From positions 1-38,724 of the forward strand of contig JASGUU010000056.1 in NCBI GenBank assembly GCA_030057555.1: a stretch of DNA of 38,724 bases, in the 5' to 3' direction. This document shows positions 12,841 through 38,540 of the stretch, piece by piece. The stretch is from Bacillota bacterium (lineage in GTDB: Bacteria; Bacillota; Clostridia; Saccharofermentanales; Fastidiosipilaceae). The position numbers and the translations under genes were made by a program. The notes under the pieces were generated by a model. That model searched no databases. It was not told where the DNA came from and saw only the letters and a list, made by a program, of their open reading frames with translations. The number at the start of each line of letters is the position of its first letter. Position 1 is the stretch's first letter.

Positions 12841-13150
12841 TCAAATAAAAAAACCTTCGCTCCCCAAGGGACGAAGGTTCAAGTTCGCGGTACCACCCAA
12901 ATTGACAGATCCTCGAAGGATCTGCCCACTCTTTCATGCCTTAAAGCGGCAACAACTTCCAGGCCTACCGGCATGGCTCATGGCTTTCGAAACCCCTCGA
13001 CAGCATGCGTCAGCTTTCGGTTGGAGACTCCCGGATGTTCTTCAGCTGCTCTTCCGTGTCGAACTCCCACCATCATCGACTCGCTGAACCGTCCAAACCG
13101 CCTACTCTTCCGTTCACAGTCTTTATCTTGGATTATGTGATTCAAAAAAT
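12841..13150 (-). promoter_or_regulatory. T-box riboswitch controlling aspS-gatC, gatA-like and gatB
   Basis: The leader shows the hallmark T-box sequence GGGTGGTACCGCG (12898-12886), which holds the antiterminator bulge that pairs with an uncharged tRNA acceptor end. It is followed by a terminator stem AACCTTCG / CGAAGGTT (12879-12852) and a run of seven U. Upstream, stem I has the expected GGAAGAGTA and AGCGA elements. The probable specifier region reads GAAGAACATCC: AAC (13039-13037) would select tRNA(Asn), and the overlapping GAA would select tRNA(Glu). Either fits an operon for tRNA-dependent amidation. Uncharged tRNA should prevent termination and switch the operon on. T-box identity is very sure; the codon assignment is moderate. 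Confidence 0.93.
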
Positions 13151-15180: not shown

Positions 15181-15494
15181 CACAGCCTGTGGCAGAAGGC
15201 CTGCCCCCTGTAGTGTCAACTGGTTATCCTCCGCTAACAAAATTAGCAGATTGCTTTTCCCTGGGCAATACCACTCTAATGGAAAATTGCAGCTCAAATA
15301 CCAGGAGATTGGAGCTGGACACAGCACCCGAGAGCAGCCTGACCGCGTCTGTGGAAAAGCGCAGTTCTGTCCAGGTTTCGGAGCACCACTGCAAGTGCTG
15401 TCCGTACAGCTGGCTGCCTCCTGTCAATGCCGCTATTTAGTGATCACAAAGAGATGGCGGCGGCACAGACTGCCAGTTGGCGACAAAGGGAGTG
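15181..15494. other. Gene-free stretch before the 60-bp array
   Basis: I see no protein family in any frame here. The stretch separates the methyltransferase remnant from the tandem array and probably contains decayed copies of intergenic repeat sequence, but I could not align them convincingly. Confidence 0.3.
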
Positions 15495-15840
15495 GCCAAA
15501 TTTTCCGCTCCTGCCCCGATTTGGGGCACCAGCGTCATTTTTGACCACTTTCCGGCCAAATTTTCCGCTCCTGCCCCGATTTGGGGCACCAGCGTCATTT
15601 TTGACCACTTTCCGGCCAGATTTTCCGCTCCTGCCCCGATTTGGGGCACCAGCGTCATTTTTGACCACTTTCCGGCCAGATTTTCCGTTCCTGCCCCGAT
15701 TTGGGGCACCAGCGTCGTTTTTGGCCACTTTCCGGCCAGATTTTCCGTTCCTGCCCCGATTTGGGGCACCAGCGTCATTTTGGGCCACCCTCCGCTCAAA
15801 AATCACAGTTATGTCACGATTCGTGGCACACTTCTGTTTC
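15495..15840. repeat. 60-bp tandem repeat array (five units plus a degenerate sixth)
   Basis: Five head-to-tail units of exactly 60 bp run from about 15495 to 15794 with only a few substitutions. A clearly diverged sixth unit follows at 15781-15840, and a trace of a seventh begins with GGAGCCACC. Each unit has a hairpin TGCCCC-GATTT-GGGGCA followed by CAGCGTCATTTTTGACCA and CTTTCCGGCC. Because 60 is divisible by three, several frames stay open across the array and give repetitive false proteins. Divergence rises toward the right end, as if the array expanded from the left. Confidence 0.95.
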
Positions 15841-16016: not shown

Positions 16017-17087
16017 ATGACAGCGAAACTTACGAGCCGCGAACGCTTCCGGCGCATGTACGAGCACCGCGACGCCGACCGCGTCCCGATCATCGACTCC
16101 CCCTGGGAGGGCACGCTGCTGCGCTGGCGCTCCGAAGGTCTCGGTGGGCGCGACTGGGTCGAATACTTCGACATCGACCGCGTCGCCCACATCGGCGTCG
16201 ACTCCTCCCCCCGCTACCCGGCGGCCACCGTCTCCCTCGACGAGCGCTTCCACACCTACACCACCCCCTACGGCGTCACGCTCAAGCAGCTGCGCGTCCC
16301 CGACTCCACGCCCGAATATGTCGCCTTCACCGTCACCGACCCCGACAGCTGGCGCGCCGCCAAAGTCCGCATGACCCCTACCTCCGACCGCATCGACTGG
16401 GCCCGCCTCGAGCGCCTCTATCCTGTCTGGGAACGGGAAGGCCACTGGATCACGGGCGACTTCTGGTTCGGCTTCGATGTCACCCACTCCTGGTTCGTCG
16501 GCACCGAAACCCTGCTCATCGCCCTCGCCGAGGAGCCCGACTGGTGCCGCGAGATGTTCGAGCATTTCCTCGACATGAACATTGCCCTCTTCGAACAGAT
16601 CCTCGCGGCCGGCTACTGCCTCGACGAGATCAACTGGCCTGATGACATGGGCTACAAGCAGAACCAGTTCTTTTCCCGGCGCATGTATCAGGACCTCCTG
16701 CTGCCGGTTCAGAAGCGCGCCATCGACTGGGCGCACAGCCACGGCATCCGGGCGCGCCTGCACTCCTGCGGCGACATCCGCCCCTTCGTCCCCCTCCTCG
16801 TCGCTGCCGGACTCGACGCCCTCAACCCCCTCGAGGTGAAAGCCGGCATGGACCCCCATGCACTTAAGGCCCAATACGGCGACCGCCTCGTCCTTCACGG
16901 CGGCCTCAACGCCGTGCTCTTCGCGGATACGGAGGCCACCATCGCCGAAATCCGGCGGCTGCTGCCCGTCATGAAGCAGAACGGCGGCTATATCTTCAGC
17001 TCCGACCACTCGGTGCCGAACACCGTCAGCCTCGAGGAAATGGCGGCCATCATCCGGACGGCGAAGGAATACGGCAGCTACAGCTGA
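16017..17087 (+). CDS. Uroporphyrinogen decarboxylase-family (MtaA/MtbA-like) protein
   Basis: 356 residues with the UroD/cobalamin-dependent methyltransferase barrel fold: SRERFRRMYEHRDADRVPI at the N-terminus, RLHSCGDIRPFVPLLVAAGL with the zinc-type His-x-Cys, LNPLEVKAGMDPHALKA, LVLHGGLNAVLFAD and FSSDHSVPNTVSLEE at the end. Such proteins outside haem synthesis usually move methyl groups from methylated compounds to a corrinoid protein or coenzyme. No corrinoid protein or activase lies beside it and there are no other haem genes, so haem synthesis is unlikely. ATG 16017 has GAGG six bases upstream. It stands alone, facing the GH9 gene across a repeat-bearing gap. Confidence 0.82.
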   Translation: MTAKLTSRERFRRMYEHRDADRVPIIDSPWEGTLLRWRSEGLGGRDWVEYFDIDRVAHIGVDSSPRYPAATVSLDERFHTYTTPYGVTLKQLRVPDSTPEYVAFTVTDPDSWRAAKVRMTPTSDRIDWARLERLYPVWEREGHWITGDFWFGFDVTHSWFVGTETLLIALAEEPDWCREMFEHFLDMNIALFEQILAAGYCLDEINWPDDMGYKQNQFFSRRMYQDLLLPVQKRAIDWAHSHGIRARLHSCGDIRPFVPLLVAAGLDALNPLEVKAGMDPHALKAQYGDRLVLHGGLNAVLFADTEATIAEIRRLLPVMKQNGGYIFSSDHSVPNTVSLEEMAAIIRTAKEYGSYS

Positions 17088-17171
17088 CCCGGCGGCAAAG
17101 ACCTCACATGAAGCAGCCGGCGAACTTCCTGCCCGGCGGTGACAGGGCCTGCCGGGCGCGCGCGTTCCCGG

Positions 17172-17332
17172 TTGCATAAGAGGGTCGTGAGCACGAATTC
17201 AACTTCTACACACTTTTGCGTGTATATCTCGGGTTTTTGAGCGCAAAACCACCACTCGCACCATATTTTGTTCAAAATCTCGACTTCTGCGCACCCCAAG
17301 TCGAATTCCTGTGCACTGCATAATGTACCCAG
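17172..17332 (+). repeat. Dispersed intergenic repeat, copy A
   Basis: About 160 bp that match the element at 28047-28217. Shared words in the same order are GGGTCGTGAGC, TTCAA, a hairpin around GTGTATA, TTGAGC, AAACCACCACTCGCA, TGCGCA, TCGAAT, TGCACTGCATA (copy B TGCACATTGCATACT) and TGTACCCAG. It lies between the convergent ends of the UroD-family and GH9 genes. Confidence 0.8.
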
Positions 17333-17420
17333 GCCAAAGAGCGCCGCTTTCCCTGCCCAACGAGGTCCGGAGGGCTTCCGAAGCCAGGGGCGCGGGGCCG
17401 GCAAAAGGAGCGGACGGGCA

Positions 17421-17453
17421 GAAAAGAAGCAGGCGGCATGAAAAACTGCCTGC
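17421..17453 (-). terminator. Probable intrinsic terminator of the GH9 gene
   Basis: On the minus strand GCAGGC (17453 side) pairs with GCCTGC around a loop containing AGTTTTTCATGCC, followed by TTCTTTTC. It sits about 115 bases after the GH9 stop codon. The U-run is interrupted by C, so strength is uncertain. Confidence 0.45.
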
Positions 17454-17567
17454 TCCTTAGCCAGAGAGGGCGCCGAGAATTGAGCTCTACGCCCCATGGA
17501 AGACGGCCAAAGCACACATATCTCAGTTACTGCGGCCGTCTCAGCGTTTCCGGCCCGGAACGTCCCG

Positions 17568-20060
17568 TCAGCCCTTCGCCAGCAGCTGCCCGGCCGCCAG
17601 CGCCAGGAACATGAAGTGCGACGAACCTCCGCCCAGAACGTACTCGACCTGCTGCCAGAGATAGGGGAAGACCAGCAGCTCCGGGAAGTCGGGGCGGATC
17701 AGGGCGGTGCCTGAAATGACGCCGCCGGGGATATAGGACCAGTCGGCGCGGTTCAGGCCGTAGCCGACCGTGGCCGAGCTGGTACCGATGCCGGATGCGA
17801 AGGACATCGTATTTGAGCCCGGATGGCAGCCGAGCACAAAGTTCAGCGCATTAAACAGCAGCTCAGCATCAAACACATCCGGGTAGGCCCGATGCAGGAA
17901 GTAGTACTCGAAGCCCAGGCGCTGTATGCCCCAGCCGGCGCCCCAGATGTAGGGCTCGTAGGGGATGCCGTAGGGCGTGGCTGCACTCTGTCTGGCCAGC
18001 GTTGCCTTCAGGGCCGGCAGTCCCGCCCGCACCGCCGCCGTGAATCCGGGATCCCCGAGCTTCGACTCCACCCGCGCAACAAACCAGCCGACCTTCTCGA
18101 GCGCGCCGGCGACGTAGTCCGTCTCCGCCAGCAGCTGCTCCCGATAGAGCGCCGCCTCCGTCGTCAGGAAGAGCTCGGAGGCCGCGAAGAGCCTGGCCCG
18201 CCGCGCCGCTTCGCTCTCGACCGCCGTCATGCGGAAGAGCTCCTCGGCCGCCGCCAGCGCCTCCGCCGCCAGCTCATCGTTGAAGCCCGCGAGCGCCCGG
18301 GCCGCCGCTGCCAGCTGACCGGCCGTCACGAGCTCCCGGGGCGGGTTGTCCTCGGTGAAGACCCAGCGATCGTCCCCGTCGCCGGCAATCCCCGCCGTCA
18401 TGGCGGCGCTGTCGCCGAGCAGCACATAGTCGCGCAGCCGACCCGTGATGATGCCGCGGTAGAGGCGGCCGAGCGCCTTCCAGCCGCCGACCACCGTGAG
18501 CACGCCGTGCTCGATCTGCTGCAGGATGTCGTTCTTCCCGTCCGGCTGATGGATCTCGACCAGCCGCCGCTTCTGGTCGATCGTCGTCACATCATAGTCG
18601 ACCCCGAAGGCCTCATAGGCCAGCGTCAGGATATAGGCCTCGCCCGCCTGCGACTCGACCCGCAGATCGAAGTCGCCGGCATCGTGCCAGCCGCCGACAT
18701 TGAGCCCCGGCACCGGATCGCCCGGCTGATACGGGCACAGCGTCGAGGGCCCCTGCACGTAGCCGTCGATGTGGTTGAAGTCCACCGGCGCCATGCGGGC
18801 GTCATCGAGATGGCAGGCACCGTGCCAGACGCGGTACTTCTCGTTCACACGCATGTGGCACATCTGCACCGGCAGGAAGTATTCGAGCACCGGCTGCCAG
18901 ACGCCGCGCTCATAGACATCGGACGCGATCCGGAACCAGGCCGAGCGCGACGCCCCATAGCGCAGCTGATAGAGCCCGGGCTCCGTCACCTGCGTGAAGT
19001 CAACGTGTAGATAGCGATAGCGCAGGAAGTCGCCCCACTCCCGGGCCGCCGCCCGCAGCACAACGGTCTCGCCCGCCTCATCCAGGCGCACCAGCTCCGG
19101 CTCCGGCCGCGCCTCATCGCGCGCGTCGAGCTCAATCACCGCCCGCTTCGTCTGCCCCGGATGGTAGCCCACCTGCGAGACCTGAATGACCGGTGCATGG
19201 AGCCAGTCCGGAATCACGGTCGGGGTGATGGTCCAGCGCACAGCCCCCTCCGTAGCTCCCGCCGGCACCTCACTGCTGAGCACGAACCAGCCGTTGTTGT
19301 GGTTCATGCGGCCGTCATAGAGCTTGAGCTCTGTACCATGGCTTTCTACGGCAAAGCGCCGCGACGCCTCGTCCGGACGGCAGACGAAGCGCCGGCCCGT
19401 CGCATATGGCACGGCGATCTGGTCATCCGCGATGATCGGGCTGTAGCCGCGGCCGCCGTCCGCCAGAATCCCGCGGTCAGCCCGCGCATCCGGCCTGGCA
19501 AAGTCCCCCGTGTGCTCGTAGTTAGTCGGCAGCGTCAGCACCGGCCCGTTCGGCTGCTCCGGAAAGAAACCCTGCTGTTCATCCATCAGCCACGGCGTAC
19601 CAACGAGAGCGCCCGGGAAGAGCTCGAGATTGAACGAGAGCTTCCCCAGCAGGAAGTCCGGCACCTCCCGGTCGAGATCCACCGTCACCTGAACCGCATC
19701 TCCGTCCGCCTCGACCCGCACCTGATATTCACACTCGAAGTCGGGATAGATCATCGGGTTGAAGCCGCGCAGATGGCGATCGCGGTCGGGCCAGGCGAGC
19801 CGCGTCGTGATCCGGCCGGCCTCGAGATCCAGTCTGCGCTCGAGCTGCTTCGGCACCGGCTGCCACTGCCCCGGCGTCTGCTCCAGGCGGATGTCGCCGT
19901 TTGTCGCCACACGATGCCCGTGCATGATGATGCTCACCCCGGACTGATGTCCCTCAGGATAGATGTCGTCGAAGGCCATGATATCGACGCCGCGGTTCTG
20001 GAAGTAGCCCCGTTCCGGCAGCAGCCGGAAGCCTGTTGTCATGTTTTCTTTGTCCACCAC
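17568..20060 (-). CDS. Glycoside hydrolase family 9 protein, no signal peptide
   Basis: 830 residues. The first ~285 form a beta-rich domain of unknown type. Then comes the Ig-like domain typical of GH9 (VIQVSQVGYHPGQTKRAVIEL), followed by the (alpha/alpha)6 catalytic domain. The catalytic-base motif GGWHDAGDFDLRV is near residue 455-462. VLGCHPGSNTMSFASGIG is near residue 760. The probable acid Glu is in QQVEYVLGGGSSHFMFLAL near residue 806. GH9 enzymes are inverting beta-glucanases or exo-glucosidases. The lack of a signal sequence suggests action on imported oligosaccharides in the cytoplasm. The start is GTG 20060 behind AAGGGGG. The large MalT-like regulator lies 116 bp upstream on the same strand. 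Confidence 0.85.
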   Translation of the reverse strand: MVDKENMTTGFRLLPERGYFQNRGVDIMAFDDIYPEGHQSGVSIIMHGHRVATNGDIRLEQTPGQWQPVPKQLERRLDLEAGRITTRLAWPDRDRHLRGFNPMIYPDFECEYQVRVEADGDAVQVTVDLDREVPDFLLGKLSFNLELFPGALVGTPWLMDEQQGFFPEQPNGPVLTLPTNYEHTGDFARPDARADRGILADGGRGYSPIIADDQIAVPYATGRRFVCRPDEASRRFAVESHGTELKLYDGRMNHNNGWFVLSSEVPAGATEGAVRWTITPTVIPDWLHAPVIQVSQVGYHPGQTKRAVIELDARDEARPEPELVRLDEAGETVVLRAAAREWGDFLRYRYLHVDFTQVTEPGLYQLRYGASRSAWFRIASDVYERGVWQPVLEYFLPVQMCHMRVNEKYRVWHGACHLDDARMAPVDFNHIDGYVQGPSTLCPYQPGDPVPGLNVGGWHDAGDFDLRVESQAGEAYILTLAYEAFGVDYDVTTIDQKRRLVEIHQPDGKNDILQQIEHGVLTVVGGWKALGRLYRGIITGRLRDYVLLGDSAAMTAGIAGDGDDRWVFTEDNPPRELVTAGQLAAAARALAGFNDELAAEALAAAEELFRMTAVESEAARRARLFAASELFLTTEAALYREQLLAETDYVAGALEKVGWFVARVESKLGDPGFTAAVRAGLPALKATLARQSAATPYGIPYEPYIWGAGWGIQRLGFEYYFLHRAYPDVFDAELLFNALNFVLGCHPGSNTMSFASGIGTSSATVGYGLNRADWSYIPGGVISGTALIRPDFPELLVFPYLWQQVEYVLGGGSSHFMFLALAAGQLLAKG

Positions 20061-20176
20061 AATTACAAAACCCCCTTAAAGAAGTGGTTTCATACTAGCA
20101 CGATACGGCGGGCAATCCGAGTGGCAAAGAAGAACAGCTGCTGAGCCTGCAGCTGCGGCACCCTCCCGCAGGGCGG

Positions 20177-23100
20177 CTAGATGCTGCTGTCAAAGCCCAT
20201 CTCGCGTCGGAAGCGCTTCCGGAACTGGCGCCGCACGACGGCGGCGCGATCCTGTTCTCCGCCGCGCTCGTAGAGGGCAAGCAGGTGGCGGCAGCAGACC
20301 TCGTCAAGCGGGTCGATAACGAGGCCGCGAAGCAGATCGTCCACCACCCCGAGATCGCCATCCGCGACCGCCAGATCACCCAGAGCATGCAGTGCTTCAC
20401 TGTAGATGCCGCCGTAATATTCGCGCTGAATCGTGATCCAGTCGTCATAGTCGCCGTCTTCGAGCAGAGGACCATGGTACAGCCGGCAGATCTCGAGCAG
20501 CAGCCGCCGCTCCCCGGCCCTGTCGCCGCGCCGCCATTCATCATAGAGGCTGTCCATCCGCCGCACATCGAACTGCAGCCTCTGGCCGGAGCAGACGGAA
20601 AAGCCCTCCTTGTTCTCCTGCAGCAGGGCCGATTCGCCGTCGAAGCCGATGCCGAGTTCCGTGAGCAGCTTGCGCAGCTCATACAGGGCGACGCGCAGCG
20701 AGGTCCCGGCCGATTTGCGGTCGGACTCGGGCCAGAAGATGCCGGCGAGACGTTCACGGGTGAGCGGCCGGTCACGCAGCAGGATGTATTTCAGCAGGCC
20801 GCTGACCTTGCGCGTCTTGAAATCGGCCTCTGTTACCGTCCGTGAACCGACGCGCAGAGTGAAGGGGCCGAAGAACTGCACCTCGAGATCGGGCTCTCTC
20901 TCATGCCGCTGCTCGTTCTCCTCGAAATATTCTCTGAGCGTCTGGCAGTAGGGATCCTGAGACAGTTCGGGCACCGTTTCGTTCAGCACCCGCTCCAGAG
21001 CCTGCCGGCTGAAGGGCACTCCATAGCGATAGGCATAGTCCCGGCCCAGCCGCAGCCACTTCTCCGCATAGCGGCGTGCGCTGTCGGCATCCCCGCTCCG
21101 GGCATGGCAGTCGGCCAGCAGCAGACAAAGCGCGTAGACGGCCTGTCTGGCACCCTTGCGCCGGGACACGCGCAGGCTCGCGACGAGTTCCCGTCTGGCC
21201 TCGTCCGTCTCGCCGGCGCGCAGGAGCAGAATGCCGAGTGTGGCCCGGGCCAGCTCGGAGAGTCCGTGGCCCGGATCCTCTTTCCGCAGGCGGGCGGCAA
21301 TCCTGCGGACACGCTCGATCTGCTCCGGCCCGCTCTCCCCCGACATGAACAGGGCGAAGCATTCGGCCTCCATCTGCAAAACATGGCTGCCGTAAGCCGC
21401 ATAGGACTCTTGCGCGTTCTCCATGGCCGCCTGCGCCGCGGCGAAGTCGCCACGGAGATGATGGTAGAAGCCGCGCAGGTAGTCGGCATAGCCCTGAGCG
21501 AAGTCGGACTGCAGGCGCTCGGCGACGAGCGAAAACTCGTGGACAAAGAACTCTATCAGCGGCAGATCGCCCTGCAGGAACGGGACGTTGCAGCAGGACA
21601 CGAGTCCGATGGTGCGCCACTGGTCGTCGGCCTGCATAACCGGATGGTTCAGAATGCGTTCGAGATTGATGCGGCTCGCGGTCAGGTCACCGCGGCGATA
21701 GTGGTAGATGCCCCGGATCATCAGATAGCTGAACTGCCACAGTTCCGAGCGGATGAGGCGGCGGTCCAGATAGGCGGACAGGAGACCGGCCAGGCGCAGC
21801 CGGTCGCGCCCCACGAGGGAGATAAAGATGCTGATGATCAGGTGGGTCCGGGCCTGGCCGCCACGCAGCAGAATCCCGATGGCCGGCAGGCGTTTGGCGG
21901 CGGCGAGAAGCGCGACGAAGTCGTTGTGCTGGTAGGACACGACAAGCAGCATGCCGAAGCAGTTCATGACAAACAGATCGTCGCGCCGCTGCCGGAAGCC
22001 CTCCAGTGCCTGGGCGAAGGCATTCTGCGCCTGCAGGCGGTCGAGATTCAGGGCACGCATGCCGCTCATCAGCTGCAGGTAGGGGCTGTCTGCAACCGTC
22101 TGAGCATCAAACAGCGCCAGAACCGGGAAAAAGCTCTCCGGCACGCCGGCGTTGAAGGCTTCCCGTGCGAGCTCCTCGCCCAGAGCGATGGCGCCGGCCA
22201 GATCACGGCCCCGGAGACAGTAGGCGATGGCCTTCCGGGGATCCTGCGTGCGGTAGTAGGCGGCGATATGGCCATAGAGCCGCTCCTGCTCCTCGCGGCT
22301 GTGGGTGCTCCGGTACAGGCGGCCCAGCTCATCGCGCAGCAGCGTGTGCAGGTAATAGCGTGGCGGCTCCTCCCCTTCCATCCGGTAGCAGAGCTGGTTC
22401 GAGGCGAGCCACTGCAGAAACGCCGACGGGTCGGGCTGCTCAAAGAGCCGGCTGAGCTCGTCCACACTGAAGTCATCGAGCAGGGCGAGCTGCAGCAGCT
22501 GTTCGCGGCGTCCAGCATCAACGCCCAGCAGGTACTCCTGAAAAAAGAGCGCAAAGAGCGACTCCACCTCGGGAAACGGCAGGCTGTCGCGGCGGGCCGG
22601 GATCTGGTTTTCGAGTGCATGGCAGAGCACATAGATGCCGGCCACCCAGCCCTGGCAGCGTTCTATGACGAGAGTAAACTGCTCCTCCGTCAGCTGGAGC
22701 CGGTAGACCTCCTCTACCAGCTGGCGGGTTTCCTGCGGGGTGAAGAGCAGATCCTGCGCGGTGTACTGGCGACAGCGGTGGTCGAGATACAGTCTCCCGG
22801 TGAGCAGCTCGGGATCCTGACGGGTGGTGATGACAATGCGGATGACCGGCGGCAGATTGCGGATGAAATAGGTCAGAATCCTCTGAAACTCCGGACGTCC
22901 GGCGAGCCACTGATAGTCGTCAAAAACCAGAAAGCGGGGCTGCCGGTCACGCTCGTAGAGATGCGAGAGTTCCTGGCAGATCTGGGCGCCGAGGATGGCA
23001 TGCTCCTCCTCGAGATTTTTCAGGCTGCGCAGAGTTCTGTGCTGCTCTGCGGCGGTTTCGGGCGAATCCCGGAAGAGGCTGTCGATCAGGCGGCGATAAA

Positions 23101-23326
23101 AGACATGGAGAAAGGTATCTTCCTCCTCAACGCGATACCACCATGTCCGTTCACGATACTTCTGCAGCGACAGCAGAACGGCCGTGGTTTTTCCGAAGCC
23201 GGCCGGCGCCACCAGAATGGACAGCCGGTTCGCGGCGATCTCGAGCTGACGAATGCGCTCGCTAAAGAGGCTCTTGGCCGGAATGGCCGGGAGCTGGATC
23301 TGACTCCTGATGCTGGTTCGATCCAT
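20177..23326 (-). CDS. MalT-like STAND ATPase with TPRs and C-terminal BTAD DNA-binding domain
   Basis: 1049 residues. The N-terminal STAND-type ATPase has Walker A VAPAGFGKTT (39-48) and Walker B FLVFDDYQW (132-140), followed by the MalT-like arm with LLQLALLDDFSVDELSRLF. A long alpha-helical TPR stretch runs from about 340 to 790. Instead of a LuxR helix-turn-helix, the C-terminus from about 800 carries an OmpR-like winged helix plus bacterial transcriptional activator (BTAD) domain: EVQFFGPFTLRV, LLKYILLRDRPLTRERLAGI, FWPESDRKSAGTSLRVALYE. It should be a ligand- and ATP-dependent activator. The GH9 gene directly downstream is the most natural target, but this is inferred only from position. 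Confidence 0.92.
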   Translation of the reverse strand: MDRTSIRSQIQLPAIPAKSLFSERIRQLEIAANRLSILVAPAGFGKTTAVLLSLQKYRERTWWYRVEEEDTFLHVFYRRLIDSLFRDSPETAAEQHRTLRSLKNLEEEHAILGAQICQELSHLYERDRQPRFLVFDDYQWLAGRPEFQRILTYFIRNLPPVIRIVITTRQDPELLTGRLYLDHRCRQYTAQDLLFTPQETRQLVEEVYRLQLTEEQFTLVIERCQGWVAGIYVLCHALENQIPARRDSLPFPEVESLFALFFQEYLLGVDAGRREQLLQLALLDDFSVDELSRLFEQPDPSAFLQWLASNQLCYRMEGEEPPRYYLHTLLRDELGRLYRSTHSREEQERLYGHIAAYYRTQDPRKAIAYCLRGRDLAGAIALGEELAREAFNAGVPESFFPVLALFDAQTVADSPYLQLMSGMRALNLDRLQAQNAFAQALEGFRQRRDDLFVMNCFGMLLVVSYQHNDFVALLAAAKRLPAIGILLRGGQARTHLIISIFISLVGRDRLRLAGLLSAYLDRRLIRSELWQFSYLMIRGIYHYRRGDLTASRINLERILNHPVMQADDQWRTIGLVSCCNVPFLQGDLPLIEFFVHEFSLVAERLQSDFAQGYADYLRGFYHHLRGDFAAAQAAMENAQESYAAYGSHVLQMEAECFALFMSGESGPEQIERVRRIAARLRKEDPGHGLSELARATLGILLLRAGETDEARRELVASLRVSRRKGARQAVYALCLLLADCHARSGDADSARRYAEKWLRLGRDYAYRYGVPFSRQALERVLNETVPELSQDPYCQTLREYFEENEQRHEREPDLEVQFFGPFTLRVGSRTVTEADFKTRKVSGLLKYILLRDRPLTRERLAGIFWPESDRKSAGTSLRVALYELRKLLTELGIGFDGESALLQENKEGFSVCSGQRLQFDVRRMDSLYDEWRRGDRAGERRLLLEICRLYHGPLLEDGDYDDWITIQREYYGGIYSEALHALGDLAVADGDLGVVDDLLRGLVIDPLDEVCCRHLLALYERGGEQDRAAVVRRQFRKRFRREMGFDSSI

Positions 23327-23402
23327 CGCGCGTCACCCCGTTTCGCGCATCATGACGGCAGAGCCTCAGCCGCACTCCGAATCATAGTACTGAAATATCG
23401 GG

Positions 23403-24542
23403 TCAGGACTCATCATACGGGTTTTCCGGCAAAAGCGTAACCCTCATACCGGTCGTCCTGCCGTCATCCCGGGTTTCCTCCGCTGCGGAACCGGCCGGCC
23501 CGGACAGCAGCTTGAGGCCCGGAATGGTGGCGGGAATGCCGCTGCGGGGCGAGAGACTGGACAGAACAACCACGGCCCTCCCGCGTTCGGGGCTGAAGGC
23601 CAGATAGCTGTTGCAGCTCCCCGTCGCGCCCCTATGCCAGATCACACCGTGTTCGAGATCGTGAATCCAGACCATGCCAATTTCATCCATGCGAATGCCC
23701 AGCAGCTCATAATCTTCACGAAAAGCGTCCATTTTCTGCAGGCTCCCATGACAGGCTGTAAACAGTTCGTGCCCGTCCAGCTGTATCGCGGCGCAGGAAA
23801 GCATATCCTCCTTGTTGAAGCTGAGAGCGCCCGCCAGTCCCGGGCATGTTCGAGCCCACTGTCCTTTGGGGAAGGCTCCGTGTCCGTGAGGCCCAGATCG
23901 TGATGGACGAAATCCCGCAGCAGATCGGTATTGTCACAGCCATGGACCGCCTCCAGCACCAGACCCGGAACCGCGTAGCCGAAGTTGGAGTAGTTGAATG
24001 CATGGTCTTCGCGCTGCAGTTTCAGGCGGCCGAGCCTGTCCGGCACCAGCTCGCTCGAGATGCCGCAAAAGACGTTTCTGCCGCCCAGGAAGCTGACGAT
24101 CATGGGACTTTCAAAACAGCAGCCCTTATAGCCTGACGTATGTGTCAGAAGCTCTGCCATCGTCGGGTAGCACCTGTGCGCCAGCAGCTCCAGATACCTG
24201 TCTATCGTCTGGTCGAGGCCCAGTTTCCCATCCCGGACGGCCCGCTGGACCAGGGCGGCGTTGAAGGTTTTGCCTGTCGAGCCGATCTCATAGCGGTACA
24301 GTCCGGCGTCCGGCTCCCGACCGTTTTCACTGCAGACCTTCCAGGAGCTCCGCCCGTCTTCGCTCACCCCCACGCTGATCCTGACATCGGCCCTGTCCCG
24401 TGTTGTTTGGACGAGCGCTTCACGGAAGCCGAGTCCGGGCAGCTGCCGCGGCTGATGCCGGCCATACGGGTAGAGAACGCCGGGCACCAGAGAGAAGCAG
24501 GAGCGCAACGATGACCGGCAGGACGACCCGGACTTTTCTCAT
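23403..24542 (-). pseudogene. Class C beta-lactamase-family serine hydrolase, frameshifted
   Basis: The pieces together match a ~380-residue exported serine hydrolase. Original start: ATG 24542 with a signal-like segment RKVRVVLPVIVALLLLSG. A frame change near 24490-24510 leads to the main domain with the nucleophile motif IGSTGKTF (SxxK) and FNYSNFGYAVPG (YxN). A second frame change near 23838-23850 leads to LAGALSFNKEDMLSCAAIQL and the HRG motif in IWHRGATGSCNSYLAF. Each motif is still recognisable, so the decay is recent or caused by sequence errors. As written, no single frame encodes all three active-site motifs. The alpha/beta hydrolase gene ends 15 bases upstream, suggesting an old two-hydrolase operon. 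Confidence 0.8.
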
Positions 24543-24557
24543 CTCCGCCACCGGGCT

Positions 24558-25631
24558 TCAGGGCCGCGAAGCCGCCTGGTCGAAGAAAGCCTCGATCTGC
24601 CCGAAAAGCTCCCCGTTCACCTGGTTGACCAGGTCCAGATCGACGCCGCGGATGTAGTTCTCGCGCACAGCGGACGGCAGCGGCCCGTCGTACCCGCTGC
24701 AGAGAGCGGCGTACTCGCGGTTTTTGCGGGCGATGTATGACAGTGCCTCCGTCGGCCGAAAAATGGTATTGTGGCCGTTCTGACCCTCGCGGTCGAGAAT
24801 CAGGATCTCGACATTCGGGTTGGTCAGCTCGTCCCGGTGCGCCACAATGGCGCTGCTGTCCGCGGGAATCATCTCGTCATCGCTGCCATGAATCAGGAGG
24901 ATCGGCGTAGTCGAGCGGTTGATGCTGTCAACGGCGTTGCGCCGGTAGTTCTGCGGGCCGAAGCTCAGCAGCTGGCTCGTGTCAAAGAAAAAGCCCAGGC
25001 ACGACAGATCCAGCCCCAGCATCTCCGAAGCCTGCTCGCTCAGCAGTTCGCCGGGATAGGCGTAGCCGGCGATGGACGCGACGGCGACCAGATCATCACG
25101 ACAGCCTGCCGCCTCGGCGACGGCGAAGGCGCCCCAGCTGTGGCCCATGAGATATTTGGGCAGCCGCCCGAGCTCGGGCAGTGTATCGATAAAGGCGAGC
25201 GCCGTCTCCAGATCGATGGCGGACTGCAGCAGGCCCCTGACGGAATCGCCCCCGCTCGTCCCGGAACCCGTCCCGTCATGGGCGAAGACGGCGTAGCCTC
25301 TGTCCACCATGTGAATGATTTCATTCAGATATTCTTCATGTCCCGAGCCCATGCCATGGCAGAAGACGAGCAGGCGCTCCGCCTCCCCGCCGCCGTAGAG
25401 ATAGGCGCGAAGCTCGTTCTTTCCGACGGAAAACGAGAGTTCTTCGCGCGGATAGGCGTCGCGGTAGTGCTCGTAGCCGTATTTCGTGGTTGCGTAGTCC
25501 TTATAGTCGCCCCGCTTGAAATAGCCTGTCACGCTGAGGTGCACGATGACGACGAGGGCGGCGGGAAGCAGAGCCAGGCCGGCGAGAAGCGTGATGCCAA
25601 GCCGTTTCAGAATCTTCCTTTTCCCTGTCAT
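24558..25631 (-). CDS. Membrane-anchored alpha/beta hydrolase
   Basis: 357 residues from ATG 25631, which has a GGAGAGG ribosome binding site. The open frame continues further upstream to 25907, but that part reads through the remnant of another gene and is not homologous. An N-terminal membrane helix (LGITLLAGLALLPAALVVIV) is followed by an alpha/beta hydrolase fold: oxyanion region VFCHGMGSGHEEYL, nucleophile in MGHSWGAFA, acid in LLIHGSDDEMIP, and His in GQNGHNTIF. It probably faces the outside of the membrane as an esterase or peptidase-like enzyme. It is the first gene of a pair with the broken serine hydrolase. Substrate unknown. Confidence 0.85.
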   Translation of the reverse strand: MTGKRKILKRLGITLLAGLALLPAALVVIVHLSVTGYFKRGDYKDYATTKYGYEHYRDAYPREELSFSVGKNELRAYLYGGGEAERLLVFCHGMGSGHEEYLNEIIHMVDRGYAVFAHDGTGSGTSGGDSVRGLLQSAIDLETALAFIDTLPELGRLPKYLMGHSWGAFAVAEAAGCRDDLVAVASIAGYAYPGELLSEQASEMLGLDLSCLGFFFDTSQLLSFGPQNYRRNAVDSINRSTTPILLIHGSDDEMIPADSSAIVAHRDELTNPNVEILILDREGQNGHNTIFRPTEALSYIARKNREYAALCSGYDGPLPSAVRENYIRGVDLDLVNQVNGELFGQIEAFFDQAASRP

Positions 25632-25705
25632 CGCCTCTCCTCTCTGTTCCGCAGCCGGACGGAGCCGGCTGGCCCGCGTGATGCACCGGATGTTCCGCCT
25701 GCAGT

Positions 25706-25985
25706 TTAAAACATCTCGCCGTTGCTGACATGGAGATTGACACCATGCAGAAAGTTGGCGGCGTCGGACATTAGAAAGTGAAGGGCGGGCACGATGTCGG
25801 AGGCGGCACCGGTAATGAGGGTGGACTTTGCGGATCGTCGCGAGGATCCCCGGCTGCCTGACGGCATCGTGTTTTTCCTTCACCACACCATGAACGCGCA
25901 CCTGCATGCCGGGCAGCGCGGGACGGTGGAAGCGGGTGTCGAGCGCATGCAGGATGCAGTAGTGGCCGGGCAGGCAGACACAGTA
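25706..25985 (-). pseudogene. MaoC-like hotdog / SDR fusion gene with large internal deletion
   Basis: Three parts of one former gene remain. A hotdog-domain stretch LPGHYCILHALDTRFHRPAL then PGMQVRVHGVVKEKHD resembles MaoC-type dehydratases. About 25 codons later and in a shifted frame comes KSTLITGAASDI, the start of a short-chain dehydrogenase Rossmann fold. It is joined directly to VPALHFLMSDAANFLHG and VNLHVSNGEMF with a stop at 25706, the usual C-terminus of such dehydrogenases. About 200 residues, including the catalytic Tyr-x3-Lys, are missing. Intact fusions of this kind occur in surface-polysaccharide or lipid loci of Bacillota as far as I recall; here nothing functional is left. 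Confidence 0.75.
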
Positions 25986-25990
25986 TGTGG

Positions 25991-26350
25991 CCCTTTACGA
26001 AAACGCAGTGCATAAACAATGAAATAACATAATGCTTGATGATAAATATAATAGCCCTGCTGCGGCTCTCTATTGTTTTGCCGTTTCACATGCCACTTGC
26101 CGCATCATGAAACGCAATTGTTATCTGGCGATTATTTCCGGACGAAACTTTCACGCTCCCCATCGCCCCGTTCCAGCGGCCGGGTAGAGCAGGCGGAGCT
26201 CCGGAAGCGCTGCTGGCAGACTCGGATTTCGCGATGATGAAGTCTGGTGAAGAAACTGTGACAGGCGGCTTAAATTACATGCGGGTCCGCCTGCCGGCAG
26301 TCAGAAAAGTGTAAGGTGACAGGGAAGCATTCATCCAACCATGCGAACAA
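25991..26350. other. Upstream region of the 5'-nucleotidase gene
   Basis: An AT-rich patch around 26010-26060, followed by GC-rich sequence, holds no gene I recognise. The promoter of the 5'-nucleotidase should lie here, but I could not assign a convincing -35/-10 pair. GGGAGG at 26351-26356 is the ribosome binding site. Confidence 0.35.
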
Positions 26351-26363
26351 GGGAGGTACTCTC

Positions 26364-27941
26364 ATGCGCAAACATCTGACCCGCGTTCTGGGCTTCATCC
26401 TGGCACTCGGACTCTTCTGTGGTCTGATCCCGACCGCGGTGATCCTGGCGGCGGACGAGCCGGACATCAAGCAGATCTACATTCTGCACACGAATGACAT
26501 GCACGGCCGCGCCATCGGCGACAACGGTCCGGGCAAGGACGGTCTGCCGGTCACGAACGGCTCCATCGGCTACTCCCGTTACAAGACCCTGATCGAGACC
26601 CTGCGCGAAGTCAATGAGGACCGTGTCCTCGTGCTGGATGCGGGCGATACGACGCACGGGACGAACTTTGCCTCGCTCTCCAAAGGACAGAGCATCATCC
26701 GTCTGATGAACGATCTCGGCGTGTCGGCGATGGCGCTCGGCAACCACGAGTTCAACTATGGCCAGAAGGGCATCGAGGACCTGGCCAACGAGGCCGACTT
26801 CCCCTTCCTGGCGGCGAACATCGTGCGCACGGAGGATGGCAAGTGCCCCTATGACGAGCAGCTGATCCTCGAAGTGGACGGCATCAAGATCGGCATCTTC
26901 GGCGTCTCGACGCCGGAAACCAAGGTCAAGGCCAGCCCGAAGCATACCGAGGGGCTCGACTTTATCGATCCCGCCATCACCGCCGCCGAGCAGGTTGCGG
27001 CCCTCGAGGAGGAGACGGATGCCATCGTCATGCTCGCACATCTGGGTATGGATGCCGAATCCGAATACACTTCCACCTATGTGGTCGACCAGGTCGACGG
27101 CATCGATGTCATCATCGACGGCCACAGCCACCACAGCCTGCCCGAGGGCGAGCTCCACAGCGAGACCCTGATCTGCCAGACCGGCAACTACCTCGAGAAT
27201 GTCGGGCTCGTAACGCTGACCTTCACCGACGGTGAGCTGACGGAGACCACGGCCCGCCTGATCAGCTTCCTCGAAGCCCAGCAGTACGCTCCGGACGAGG
27301 ATGTCGACGCGGCGATCGCAGCGATCGAAGAAGAGAACCAGCGCATCACCTCGGTCGAGGTGGGCGAGCTGGCGACCAAACTGGACGGCGAGCGCGAGGA
27401 TGTCAGAACGCGTGAGACAAACCTCGGCGACCTGATCACAGACGCCATGCTCGCCGCGACCGGTGCGGACGTGGTCATCACCAACGGCGGCGGCATCCGC
27501 GCTTCGATCGAGGCCGGCACGATCACGATGGGCGACCTGCTGACGGTCCTGCCCTTCGGCAACATGGTCACCGTGATCGAGGTCACGGGCGCTGATATCC
27601 GGGCGGCCCTGGAGTTCGGTACGGACAGCTACCCCGAGACGGCGGGCAAGTTCCCCCACGTCGCCGGCATGAGCTATGAACTGCATAAGGCCGATGACGG
27701 CTACACCGTCGAGAACATCAAGGTCGGCGATGCCGATCTCGACGATGCGGCAACCTATAAGCTCGCCACCAACGACTTCATGGCCGAGGGCGGCGACGGC
27801 TACGAGATGTTCGCCCAGAAGCCTCTGCTGCTGCTCGAAGGTCTGATGGTCGACATTCTCCGCGACTATGTCGTGGAGCTGATTGCGGAAGGCGGCGCAC
27901 TGGATGTCGCCGTGGACGGCCGCATCACCGTCGTCGAGTAG
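26364..27941 (+). CDS. Secreted 5'-nucleotidase / 2',3'-cyclic phosphodiesterase family
   Basis: 525 residues from ATG 26364, with GGGAGG seven bases upstream. A Sec signal peptide covers residues 1-30 (basic RKH, hydrophobic FILALGLFCGLIPTAVIL, then AADE). The two-domain UshA/YfkN-like fold follows. The metallophosphatase domain has metal ligands in HTNDMHGR (Asp45, His47), LDAGDTTHG (Asp92), GNHEFNYG (Asn127, His128), LAHLGMD and DGHSHH. The C-terminal substrate domain contains NGGGIRASIE and PFGNMVTVIEVTG. It would dephosphorylate extracellular nucleotides for purine and phosphate salvage. No sortase motif or membrane anchor is visible at the C-terminus, so it is probably released. It is a single-gene unit followed by a strong terminator. 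Confidence 0.93.
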   Translation: MRKHLTRVLGFILALGLFCGLIPTAVILAADEPDIKQIYILHTNDMHGRAIGDNGPGKDGLPVTNGSIGYSRYKTLIETLREVNEDRVLVLDAGDTTHGTNFASLSKGQSIIRLMNDLGVSAMALGNHEFNYGQKGIEDLANEADFPFLAANIVRTEDGKCPYDEQLILEVDGIKIGIFGVSTPETKVKASPKHTEGLDFIDPAITAAEQVAALEEETDAIVMLAHLGMDAESEYTSTYVVDQVDGIDVIIDGHSHHSLPEGELHSETLICQTGNYLENVGLVTLTFTDGELTETTARLISFLEAQQYAPDEDVDAAIAAIEEENQRITSVEVGELATKLDGEREDVRTRETNLGDLITDAMLAATGADVVITNGGGIRASIEAGTITMGDLLTVLPFGNMVTVIEVTGADIRAALEFGTDSYPETAGKFPHVAGMSYELHKADDGYTVENIKVGDADLDDAATYKLATNDFMAEGGDGYEMFAQKPLLLLEGLMVDILRDYVVELIAEGGALDVAVDGRITVVE

Positions 27942-27971
27942 GCTTCCAGGAAGCGTCCAGCCTTCAACCAC

Positions 27972-28004
27972 GACGAGGCGACCCCGCGGGGCCGCCTCGT
28001 TTTT
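27972..28004 (+). terminator. Intrinsic terminator after the 5'-nucleotidase gene
   Basis: CGAGGCG-A-CCCC pairs with GGGG-C-CGCCTCG around a tiny loop, directly followed by TTTTT. It begins about 30 bases after the stop codon. Confidence 0.82.
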
Positions 28005-28046
28005 GGTGTGCCGGCCAGCCCGGGCGACTGAGCGCTTTGCCTGCTG

Positions 28047-28217
28047 CATGGAGGGGTCGTGAGCGATCATTCAATTTATGCACGGGCACTCGCGTATAAA
28101 TCGAATAATTGAGCCCCAAACCACCACTCGCAGCGAATTATGTCCCAGTAATTCGAGTTGCGCACGCTGATGCATGTACTACTCGAATACCTGCACATTG
28201 CATACTGTACCCAGTCT
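28047..28217 (+). repeat. Dispersed intergenic repeat, copy B
   Basis: About 170 bp homologous over its whole length to the copy at 17172-17332: GGGTCGTGAGC, TTTATGC...GCGTATAAA (hairpin arms), TTGAGC, AAACCACCACTCGCAGC, TTGCGCA, CTCGAATACCTGCAC and ACTGTACCCAG. It follows the terminator of the 5'-nucleotidase gene by about 45 bases. Confidence 0.8.
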
Positions 28218-28556
28218 AAAACACGCTGTGGCCTGTCATTTGATTCCCCCGGTTTTCCGTCATCAGGCAGCCCATATGCCTTCTTTACACCGGAAACAAA
28301 GTCCTCATCCATATTCTCATAGAGCATTTACATTGTTATGCTGGCTTGCCTGGCAGACATATGCTATTCATCGCATTGACAGACAGCTGCAGGCTCTGCG
28401 AACTCAGCTGTACACGCGGCGTGACTTGGATCGGAGATCTAAGCCGGCCACATGGGCGGATTTTCACCGTTCATCTGCATTTCAGCCCGGCGAAGCTTGA
28501 AATGACAGCTGTATTGACAAGCGATTTTCATGGCGACAGAAAGGAAGGCTTCGTTT
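28218..28556. other. Gene-free stretch before the small membrane protein
   Basis: Nothing recognisable as a protein in six frames. A TTGACA at 28514 could serve as a -35 box for the small membrane gene, but no matching -10 follows at the right distance. Confidence 0.3.
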
Positions 28557-28736
28557 ATGGATCAGAATAAAAAAGATGTCCTGTTGTCACTCATTACCTT
28601 TGTTCTGGTTTTTTTGAACTTCCTCTTCAGCCTCGGTGACGATCGTCTGCTGGGCAAAATTCTGCTGGGCGCAGCCTCGTGTTTCGCTCTCATCGTTCTT
28701 CTTCGCGATCTTCGGGCGAAGAGCAAAACAGGCTGA
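28557..28736 (+). CDS. Small two-helix membrane protein
   Basis: 59 residues from ATG 28557, preceded by AAGGAAGG with an eight-base gap. The charged N-terminus MDQNKKD is followed by helix VLLSLITFVLVFLNFLFSL, a short loop GDDRLLGK, helix ILLGAASCFALIVLL and a basic tail RDLRAKSKTG. This helix-loop-helix layout with a good ribosome binding site supports a real gene of unknown function. No partner gene is adjacent; the next feature is a reverse copy of the dispersed repeat. Confidence 0.6.
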   Translation: MDQNKKDVLLSLITFVLVFLNFLFSLGDDRLLGKILLGAASCFALIVLLRDLRAKSKTG

Positions 28737-28760
28737 TCTGCCGCTCTGATGTTCTGACCG

Positions 28761-28854
28761 GCGAGTGGTGATTTTTCGCTTCAAATAACCGACATATACA
28801 CAGCTTTCCGTGGATAAGTCGATTTTTCGCTCCTGATCCCTTTATGCATCAGGC
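28761..28854 (-). repeat. Dispersed intergenic repeat, partial copy C in reverse orientation
   Basis: The plus strand here reads GCGAGTGGTGATTTTTCGCT, then CCGACATATACAC, GATAAGTCGATTTTTCGCTC and TTATGCATC. This is the complement of the first half of copies A and B (compare GAGTGGTGGTTTTGCGCTC and ATATACAC in the complement of 17181-17258). It is more diverged and lacks the other half. It lies between the convergent small membrane gene and the SixA gene. Confidence 0.65.
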
Positions 28855-28997
28855 TACACACGCCGCCGGCTGCACTTCGTGACAGCTGACCTGTTTTCGC
28901 GAAAGAGTGCGGAGCAGCTCAGACACCTGCCGGAGTGGCGATTCCCGGTATCTGCCGGAGCGAAAAAGCAGACAAGCTGCACATTTCACCACAGATT

Positions 28998-37409: not shown

Positions 37410-37610
37410 ACTTCTCCTCTTTCCGTCGGGGCGGCTGCGAGCGGCACACGATCGCGAAAGCGCCCTCGAACCACTTCATCATAGCAGAGAAAGGCCGCCA
37501 TTCCGGTGCCGCTGCTGCCTGGAGGATGCACGTCAGAAATGTCGGGAAGCCGGTTAGCATGCCAGGAGAACGGCTGGCAAGGGGAAAATAGCAACTTGCG
37601 TACTTCTGGT

Positions 37611-37806
37611 GGTCAAAACGAAGAGTAATCCAAAAAAAGATTTGGATTACTCGCCATCTTGACCATGAAGGGGGCGTTTCTGGTCAAAACGAAGAGTAAT
37701 CCAAAAAAAGATTTGGATTACTCGCTGTCTTGACCAAAAAAGGGCCATTTCTGGTCAAAACGAAGAGTAATCCAAAAAAAGATTTGGAAAAGTCCCCATC
37801 TTGACC
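37611..37806. repeat. Three 54-bp nested-hairpin units spaced by 17 bp
   Basis: Units at 37611-37664, 37682-37735 and 37753-37806 (period 71 bp). Each has outer arms GGTCAA/TTGACC and an inner perfect stem GAGTAATCCAAA / TTTGGATTACTC. The third unit has lost the right inner arm (GGAAAAGTCCCC) but keeps the outer arms. The 17-bp spacers resemble each other and end in TTTCT. It lies between the divergent reductase and ABC transporter genes. Unit and spacer sizes do not fit CRISPR. Confidence 0.95.
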
Positions 37807-38540
37807 ACAAAGAAGGGCGCGCCGCGGCACGGCGCGCTGCTTATCGGGATCCCCTTTATCACACGGCATCAGGGAAACAGAACCTGGATCGCTTCGCAAT
37901 CTCCTGGCACGTGCCAGGTCGTGCCTGTCAGTCTCGCTGCCAGCTATCCTATCGCATGCCAATCACATTCCGGCAGTTTGTGAACTGGCCGTTACACTGG
38001 CAAATGGAGAAGGGATCTTCCATATACCTGCATGCCAGCTACGCTTAAACTTCGGTGTTTCAGGTCTTTGAGGAACGGCTGGGAAAAAGGCTGTGCTCGT
38101 CCCGACAAATAAGACGTGCACTAAAATGCGGCTGTCCGGCTGTCTGGCTTCCCGTAACATCTGCCCTCTGGTGCTGCCGGCCGCGGCGTGCTATCCTCTT
38201 CGCGGTATGTCCAGGGCCACCTGGATACAGATTCCAGACAAGCGACTGACGATTCGTTTCAGAAGACGGAGGGGAGCCCATGAGCCTTAGACGGAGACTG
38301 CGTATTACGCGCATGAACTGAAGCCGGCGATGTCCGGTGCCGGTCCGATTTACCGCACCGCCGCCTGATCCCCCTGCCCGTCGCCGCTTCTGCTTCATCT
38401 TCATTCTCATACCAGCCTGCTGCCGGCCGCCCCAAATCCAGGCGGTGCCTGTCGCTGTGGCGCCATTCAAACGTGGCCCACTGTGCCTGCACGGGACAGA
38501 CTTATCCCGCCGGACGGCTTCAGTTTGAAAGTAGTCTTTT
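37807..38540. other. Gene-free stretch upstream of the ABC transporter
   Basis: More than 700 bases with no frame I can assign to a protein family and no tRNA or convincing promoter. Short open frames overlap on both strands without ribosome binding sites. It may contain further decayed gene or repeat material. Confidence 0.35.

Follow-up and report, generated by a model that had tools for sequence, protein, structure and literature searches.

An apparently genus-specific interspersed palindromic repeat, probably spread as DNA, in an uncultured Bacillota lineage

The window analysed here, 38,724 bp of contig JASGUU010000056.1 from a Bacillota bacterium (GCA_030057555.1; Clostridia, Saccharofermentanales, Fastidiosipilaceae), holds three related intergenic stretches, which are members of a family represented at least 73 times in the genome of origin (G000; 2.9 Mb, 90 contigs, 96% complete). 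We read this family as a genus-specific, non-autonomous interspersed palindromic repeat that resembles miniature inverted-repeat transposable elements (MITEs) and bacterial interspersed mosaic elements (BIMEs) and has spread as DNA, a reading to which we give a probability of about 0.66.

Copy number, anatomy and distribution

The initial annotation had described three copies in two orientations, the third reversed and partial, of a dispersed element tied to no gene, and had called for a genome-wide count. With copy 1 as query, blastn against G000 gave 43 matches at E ≤ 1, of which 30 fell below 1e-6. We aligned 34 intact copies (alignment A1; 187 columns, mean column identity 74%), setting aside four half copies (L018, L030, L049, L055), and built a covariance model, R1, from this alignment. 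R1 gave 143 matches in G000 at E ≤ 1, the best down to E 1e-44, a list that includes reverse-strand duplicates, because the element is a rough palindrome, as well as unrelated palindromes and tandem hairpins. A sequence-only profile hidden Markov model (HMM) built from 34 copies (model length 178) found, after removal of duplicates and overlaps, 73 copies that score 40 bits or more in 1.1 Mb of fetched G000 sequence, taken in stretches around whole-genome matches, and 15 in the fetched sequence of G001, a relative of the same genus (metagenome-assembled genome JASGUW01, Bacillota bacterium MAG87_KBP); copies below 40 bits are left out of these counts and of the genomic contexts given below. 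The core word AAANCACCACTCGC occurs at 18 places in G000 without mismatch and at 35 with at most one, against 2 for a reversed-pattern control. Further copies thus exist in number, and the HMM recovers all three of those first described, the third over model positions 2-91. Identity among 54 full G000 copies has a median of 65% and a maximum of 97%, and the window copies have a GC content of 45-49% in a window of 61%. Their parts are as follows.

17150..17355, plus strand: copy 1, whole unit (model core 17171-17338, nhmmer 143 bits; flanks conserved for ~20 bp upstream and 20-25 bp downstream of the core)
17173-17178, plus strand: copy 1, 5' cap word TGCATA, from the sequence
17188..17243, plus strand: copy 1, module 1, 56 nt, TGAGCA...hairpin 1...TTGAGCGC, from the sequence and A1
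17269..17315, plus strand: copy 1, module 2, ~9 nt shorter around the hairpin loop, from the sequence and gap columns of A1
17316..17355, plus strand: copy 1, 3' cap (CTGCATAATGTACCCAGGCC...), from nearly invariant A1 columns and downstream conservation
28022..28240, plus strand: copy 2, whole unit (model core 28043-28219, nhmmer 145 bits; TGCATG at 28045-28050)
28060..28115, plus strand: copy 2, module 1, 56 nt, from the sequence and A1
28116..28140, plus strand: copy 2, centre containing the conserved word AAACCACCACTCGC, from matches to the pattern AAANCACCACTCGC
28141..28197, plus strand: copy 2, module 2, from the sequence and A1
28759..28872, minus strand: copy 3, left half only (5' cap, module 1 and centre), reversed (core 28759-28849, nhmmer 60 bits, model 2-91 of 178; covariance-model match C56:28644-28850, minus strand)

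Full units are discrete and ~215 bp long, consisting of a 5' cap, usually two palindromic modules around a centre, and a 3' cap, with conservation outside the core fading ~20 bp upstream and 20-25 bp downstream. The 5' cap comprises ~20 weakly conserved bases ending in GCCTGn and then TGCATAnnGG..., the centre is CnGAAAACCACCACTCGCAGCGnATTT, and the 3' cap is CTGCATACTGTACCCAGGTCGAAAAATGCTGTTTTC, with the word TGCATACTSTACCCAG... In A1, module 1 runs TGAGCAnAAATTC, hairpin, nATTTTTGAGC and module 2 runs TGTGCAAnAATTC, hairpin, nATTTTTGCTCA, and both measure 56 nt in their commonest length class. One-hairpin forms of ~95 bp (e.g., C96, C165 and C169 of G001), forms with three or more hairpins (e.g., C13:19442 of G000) and internal deletions also occur.

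Over 188 genomes of the order, four matched R1 at E ≤ 1e-5, namely G000, G001 and two members of another family, G021 and G026, which match over the modules only; the other 184 had no match. G021, G026 and G004, the last from the window's family, represent other genera and carry tandem palindromes of the same design (L092, L093, L096, L094, L098), with R1 matches that span model positions ~17-156 except for one weak full-length match in G026 (E 0.001). The sequence-only HMM, run on preselected loci of these three genomes, gave E values from 5e-7 upward, often on both strands. The G021 and G026 arrays consist of 56-nt units with TGCTCA/TGAGCA outer arms, a period of 82 and spacers like GAAACCGATGGCTCAAGCGTGAAAT. 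These modules may reflect homology or convergence, homology being unproven; as judged from sequence matches, the family itself appears to be genus-specific, with fewer and more divergent copies in G001 than in G000.

Evidence for spread and genomic position

To assess past mobility we compared similar copies with each other and G000 with G001, whose genes are 75-91% identical in DNA to those of the window. Similar copies share the unit and not the flanks: C20_94096 and C64_59608 are 86.8% identical over 205 bp, extending 11 bp to the left and 17 bp to the right of the model, and homology likewise stops with the unit between C20_94096 and C28_10156 (86.0% over 215 bp) and between C64_59608 and C70_48481 (84.5% over 194 bp). 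As in MITEs, then, a discrete non-coding unit of ~205-215 bp is repeated in unrelated flanks. Adjacency is conserved between G000 and G001 for 100 gene pairs; the gap holds the element only in G000 in three of them, only in G001 in one, in both in three and in neither in 93. The gap that holds copy 1 measures 480 bp, compared with 80 bp for the orthologous G001 gap, which has no element; beside a MalT-like gene the element is present in G001 and absent from the window. Other copies have been inherited in place, surroundings included (e.g., G000 C69:113705 and G001 C41:6640, 91.6% identical over 916 bp). Together, the units shared without flanks and the gaps filled in one species only point to past mobility.

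Several observations weigh against spread of the unit as a MITE-like element. C64_54731, C64_59608 and C69_4055, which are among the most alike copies, share another 50-170 bp of flank, suggesting that the 215-bp unit alone did not account for all spread. In the three doubly occupied gaps the G001 copies are short and weak (36, 28 and 30 bits), the 28-bit copy having no clear caps, and empty orthologous gaps could also be losses. Target-site duplications, which the initial annotation had proposed to look for, could not be read in nine similar copies, whose ends are fuzzy at the single-base level. Neither a gene-bearing parent with the same ends nor end-only matches lying far apart were found among the BLAST and covariance-model matches in the 96% complete, 90-contig assembly, and the Y1_Tnp transposase domain (PF01797) of REP-associated tyrosine transposases (RAYTs; REP, repetitive extragenic palindromic sequence) had 0 matches in it. 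The unit also lacks terminal inverted repeats: its left end reads TGCATAAAGG.. and its right end, reversed, GGGTACAGTATGCA..; near the ends only the subterminal GTGAGCA/TGCTCA are complementary, and these pair within a copy no better than with arms swapped between copies.

Two readings of particular stretches as mobile DNA were rejected. Copies 2 and 3 are unlikely to bound a composite transposon as inverted ends, the intervening segment (540 bp, 49% GC) having no other copy in the fetched sequence and no close match in fetched G001; it holds one open reading frame.

28557-28733, plus strand: 59-codon open reading frame between copies 2 and 3, membrane-protein-like, with no Pfam match

A mobile vector was likewise discarded, as no match was found in plasmids (searched with copy 1), phages (copy 2) or viral contigs (pattern).

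All 85 scored copies (70 in G000 and 15 in G001) lie between genes as called with a simple codon-usage gene caller, in keeping with an element tied to no gene. Of G000 copies with both neighbours called, 31 are in convergent, 10 (++) and 9 (--) in codirectional and 7 in divergent gaps; copies show no strand preference next to codirectional genes. Convergent gaps of the fetched G000 sequence are occupied in 33 of 109 cases, codirectional gaps in 20 of 590 and divergent gaps in 7 of 116, which for convergent gaps versus the rest (27/706) gives an odds ratio of 10.9 (p 7e-16). These counts omit gaps lacking either neighbour, the codirectional class includes short intra-operon gaps, and the occupancy rates are inflated by the choice of stretches around copies, an effect from which the contrast between classes should suffer less. 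All three window copies lie at the 3' ends of genes, as first described. Copy 1 is in a convergent gap between a URO-D/MtaA-like methyltransferase gene (16017-17087, plus strand) and a glycosyl hydrolase family 9 gene (17568-20060, minus strand), and another convergent gap, 27942-28997, between 5'-nucleotidase and histidine phosphatase genes, contains both copy 2 and copy 3. There, a separate GC-rich hairpin with a T-run stands directly after the gene, with copy 2 beyond it, and is also kept in G001.

Pairing in the modules and rival readings

The initial annotation had noted hairpin arms that differ between copies and yet roughly pair, and had allowed for a structured non-coding element. The rough pairing holds, but the covariation behind it proved to be confined to part of one hairpin. 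We exchanged whole arms between copies 1000 times in 63 copies from G000 and G001, omitting copies below 45 bits or not spanning model positions 5-165. The outer six pairs of hairpin 1 covary, with 84.4% pairing in their own copies versus 78.4% when swapped (z 6.0, 0/1000), whereas the inner seven pairs of hairpin 1 (z -0.6), hairpin 2 (z 0.4) and the closing stem (z 0.0) show no covariation. Kinship of copies does not explain the signal, since controls in which a hairpin 1 arm was set against a hairpin 2 arm of the same copy gave z 0.6 and 1.4. Counted on A1, pairing over all four stems together amounts to 80.2%, a value that 17/500 shuffles reach, versus 79.4% after shuffling; hairpin 1 alone reaches 84.8 versus 81.8 (1/500 shuffles) and hairpin 2 alone 70.7 versus 71.8 (449/500). 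RNAalifold gave a consensus energy of only -1.55 kcal/mol, single-copy folding a z of -1.1, and no proposed pair was among the top 25 column pairs of a mutual-information scan. Altogether, constraint or correction acts jointly on the two outer arms of hairpin 1, and complementarity elsewhere is no more than column composition provides. Intramolecular template switching could generate such paired arms without selection.

The four inner arms, each read 5' to 3' on its own strand, share the 9-mer TTRTRCRCR in 54 G000 copies. Its positions 2, 4, 6 and 8 (T2, T4, C6, C8) are nearly fixed, purines exchange at positions 3, 5, 7 and 9, and the four sites vary independently of one another, which favours a DNA element over an RNA. 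The arms look like four independent half-sites of a putative DNA-binding protein.

We weighed three other explanations. The family could be a structured RNA (a 3'-UTR (untranslated region) stabiliser, a bidirectional terminator or a small RNA) with hairpins selected as such, and the location at 3' ends, the A-run and T-run flanking each hairpin and the six covarying pairs would suit it. Beyond those six pairs, however, neither covariation nor folding supports an RNA: pairing of the whole structure hardly exceeds that of shuffled alignments, copies beside codirectional genes have no preferred strand, and copy 2 lies beyond a hairpin and T-run of its neighbouring gene that are distinct from it. 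Searches of Rfam with cmscan found nothing for copy 2 or copy 3 at a cut-off as loose as E ≤ 1 and, at gathering scores, nothing in the whole window except a T-box. We therefore consider an RNA unlikely. It is quite unlikely, too, that the repeats are dispersed sites for a chromosome-organising or replication protein (like gyrase or a nucleoid-associated protein, as proposed for BIMEs, or DnaA-like) and are kept by selection. A single 9-mer in both arms of both hairpins, varying independently as DNA half-sites do, and the strong bias to convergent gaps, where positive supercoils meet, argue for such sites, but a selected site would resist the decay, truncation and colonisation by insertion sequences (ISs) seen in the copies, and copies in the sister species are fewer and more divergent. 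The DnaA box is TTWTNCACA. We rejected it as an identity for the 9-mer, in which positions 7 and 9 take either purine, often G, and the dnaA neighbourhood has no box cluster; with one TTWTNCACA in 12 kb around dnaA, the host's own boxes are uncalibrated.

Very unlikely, in our view, is a REPIN or BIME of REP type that has lost its RAYT transposase. Paired palindromes, extragenic position, 3'-end bias and IS targeting match REPs as described (PMC3733652, PMC3116915, PMC8450116), and G001 retains a stop-riddled Y1 transposase remnant (C163:17297-17530, L248). That remnant, however, adjoins arrays from two palindrome families of a different kind (GTTGTGTCA.. and TGGACA..), and by eye no recognisable copy of the window repeat lies beside it. 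Y1_Tnp is absent from G000, G021, G026, G016 and G024, G004 alone being positive (30 bits) among the six genomes searched; a RAYT as the mover was rejected, PF01797 not being found in G000 in a search that also covered the genus and related genomes. In addition, GTAG lies within 20 nt of a hairpin in 3/63 copies, on one side only, and CGTC in 0/63, and the modules measure 56 nt, not 20-40.

We also compared the family with described repeats. REPs, BIMEs and REPINs are extragenic high-copy palindromes, often paired, mostly between convergent or unidirectional genes (PMC3733652, PMC3116915, PMC8266576). Like them, the window repeat is extragenic, multi-copy, found mainly at 3' ends and an IS target; unlike them, it has 56-nt modules in capped ~215-bp units, rarely uses codirectional gaps, carries no GTAG/CGTC tag and has no RAYT in its genome. 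In the Bacillus cereus group, the BCR repeats bcr1-bcr18 measure 100-400 bp and reach tens of copies in a genome (39 on average for bcr1). They are similar in belonging to Bacillota, in size and copy number, and in being group-restricted and mobile-like without a known transposase; a TTTAT motif resembling a recombination site is reported for them (PMC6542083). With respect to the initial comparison with MITEs, the likeness stands in size and behaviour, whereas the label is unproven. MITEs are small, discrete, non-coding, dispersed and polymorphic between relatives, all of which applies to the window repeat, but neither terminal inverted repeats nor a target-site duplication nor a parent transposon was found for it. 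Integron attC sites combine two palindromic stems with an asymmetric internal loop and conserve little of their primary sequence. The modules share these traits, but by eye no GTTRRRY was seen at them and no cassettes lie between copies; an integrase was not searched for. The family behaves like REP, BIME and MITE elements, but because the tests for tag, RAYT and terminal inverted repeats fail, we do not place it in any of these groups and treat it as a related variant that appears to be undescribed and was not found in print within a limited literature search.

For the preferred reading, a repeat spread as DNA, we propose that an enzyme with its gene at another site moves or copies the units and may read the caps and/or the module (TTRTRCRCR half-sites, TGAGCA words, hairpin 1). 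Copies would persist between 3' ends, where no promoter or gene is interrupted, and module number would shift by recombination between the TGAGC/TGTGC words bounding each module. A gene-specific role for the elements is improbable. With REP-like habits and no REP transposase, the family allows one to ask what moves such repeats where the usual suspect is absent, and its drifting half-sites and covarying hairpin 1 outer arms separate a DNA-site constraint from a pairing constraint within one repeat. It also adds an apparently undescribed interspersed palindrome family in an uncultured Bacillota lineage.

Insertion sequences and other palindromic families

The copies serve as IS landing sites and break the assembly. 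An IS with the ends GTAAGCGCTCAAARA, which we take to be IS66-like from these ends and its 8-bp duplications, has 17 ends in G000, and 11 of them have a repeat match within the adjoining 230 bp (e.g., at contig ends L261, L262, L265 and L269), the eleventh lying a few bases outside a copy. Five such insertions could be paired by 8-bp duplications inside copies (TCTGCATA, CCGAAAAT, CCTTTTTT, AAAAAACC, GTACAAAT), and two further IS types end within copies. Of 79 copies, 15 are found no more than 350 bp from the end of a contig, versus 1.7 expected. REPs are known IS targets (PMC8450116).

The window repeat is one of several palindromic families in the genus with a common module size and design, and two others occur in the window.

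37610..37807, plus strand: second palindromic family, three 56-nt TGGTCA..TGACCA units with a period of 71, unlike the main repeat in sequence and of the same design
15494..15830, minus strand: third family, palindromes in tandem at a period of 60 bp with a TGCCCC/GGGGCA inner hairpin and TGCCCCGATTTGGGGCA core

For the second family, window positions 37500-37900 gave 106 own-genome BLAST matches, ~55 of them above 160 bits, in arrays of 1-5 units at a 71-nt period, with conserved flanks and 75-90% identity. Its inner stems pair better than swapped ones only across both genomes together (z 3.8; within each genome, z -1.5 and 1.7). As pairing is not clear within either genome, it does not rescue an RNA reading, and its Rfam matches are mostly to miRNA models far below cut-offs. 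In G001 the third family has dozens of relatives, of which several lie where contigs end.

When we looked for TGNNCA outer arms enclosing an inner stem of at least nine pairs, G000 yielded 43 units and G001 60, mostly 55-58 nt long and 102 of the 103 outside called genes, whereas the first 40 loci (755 kb) yielded 0 after block shuffling. Most of the units belong to sequence families other than the window repeat. It is tempting to speculate, though we regard this as doubtful, that the window repeat belongs to an order-wide superfamily of 55-58-nt two-stem palindromic modules, in which a TGNNCA outer stem and an inner hairpin are separated by an asymmetric internal loop rich in A/T. The modules would stand in capped arrays of one to several, at periods of 60, 71 or 82 nt, with more than one such family, each with stems unrelated to the others', in a single genome, and all would be mobilised by one non-Y1 enzyme that reads geometry more than sequence.

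The T-box leader of the window (Rfam RF00230, 105.5 bits) lies at 12864-13126 on the minus strand, upstream of aspS fused to gatC.

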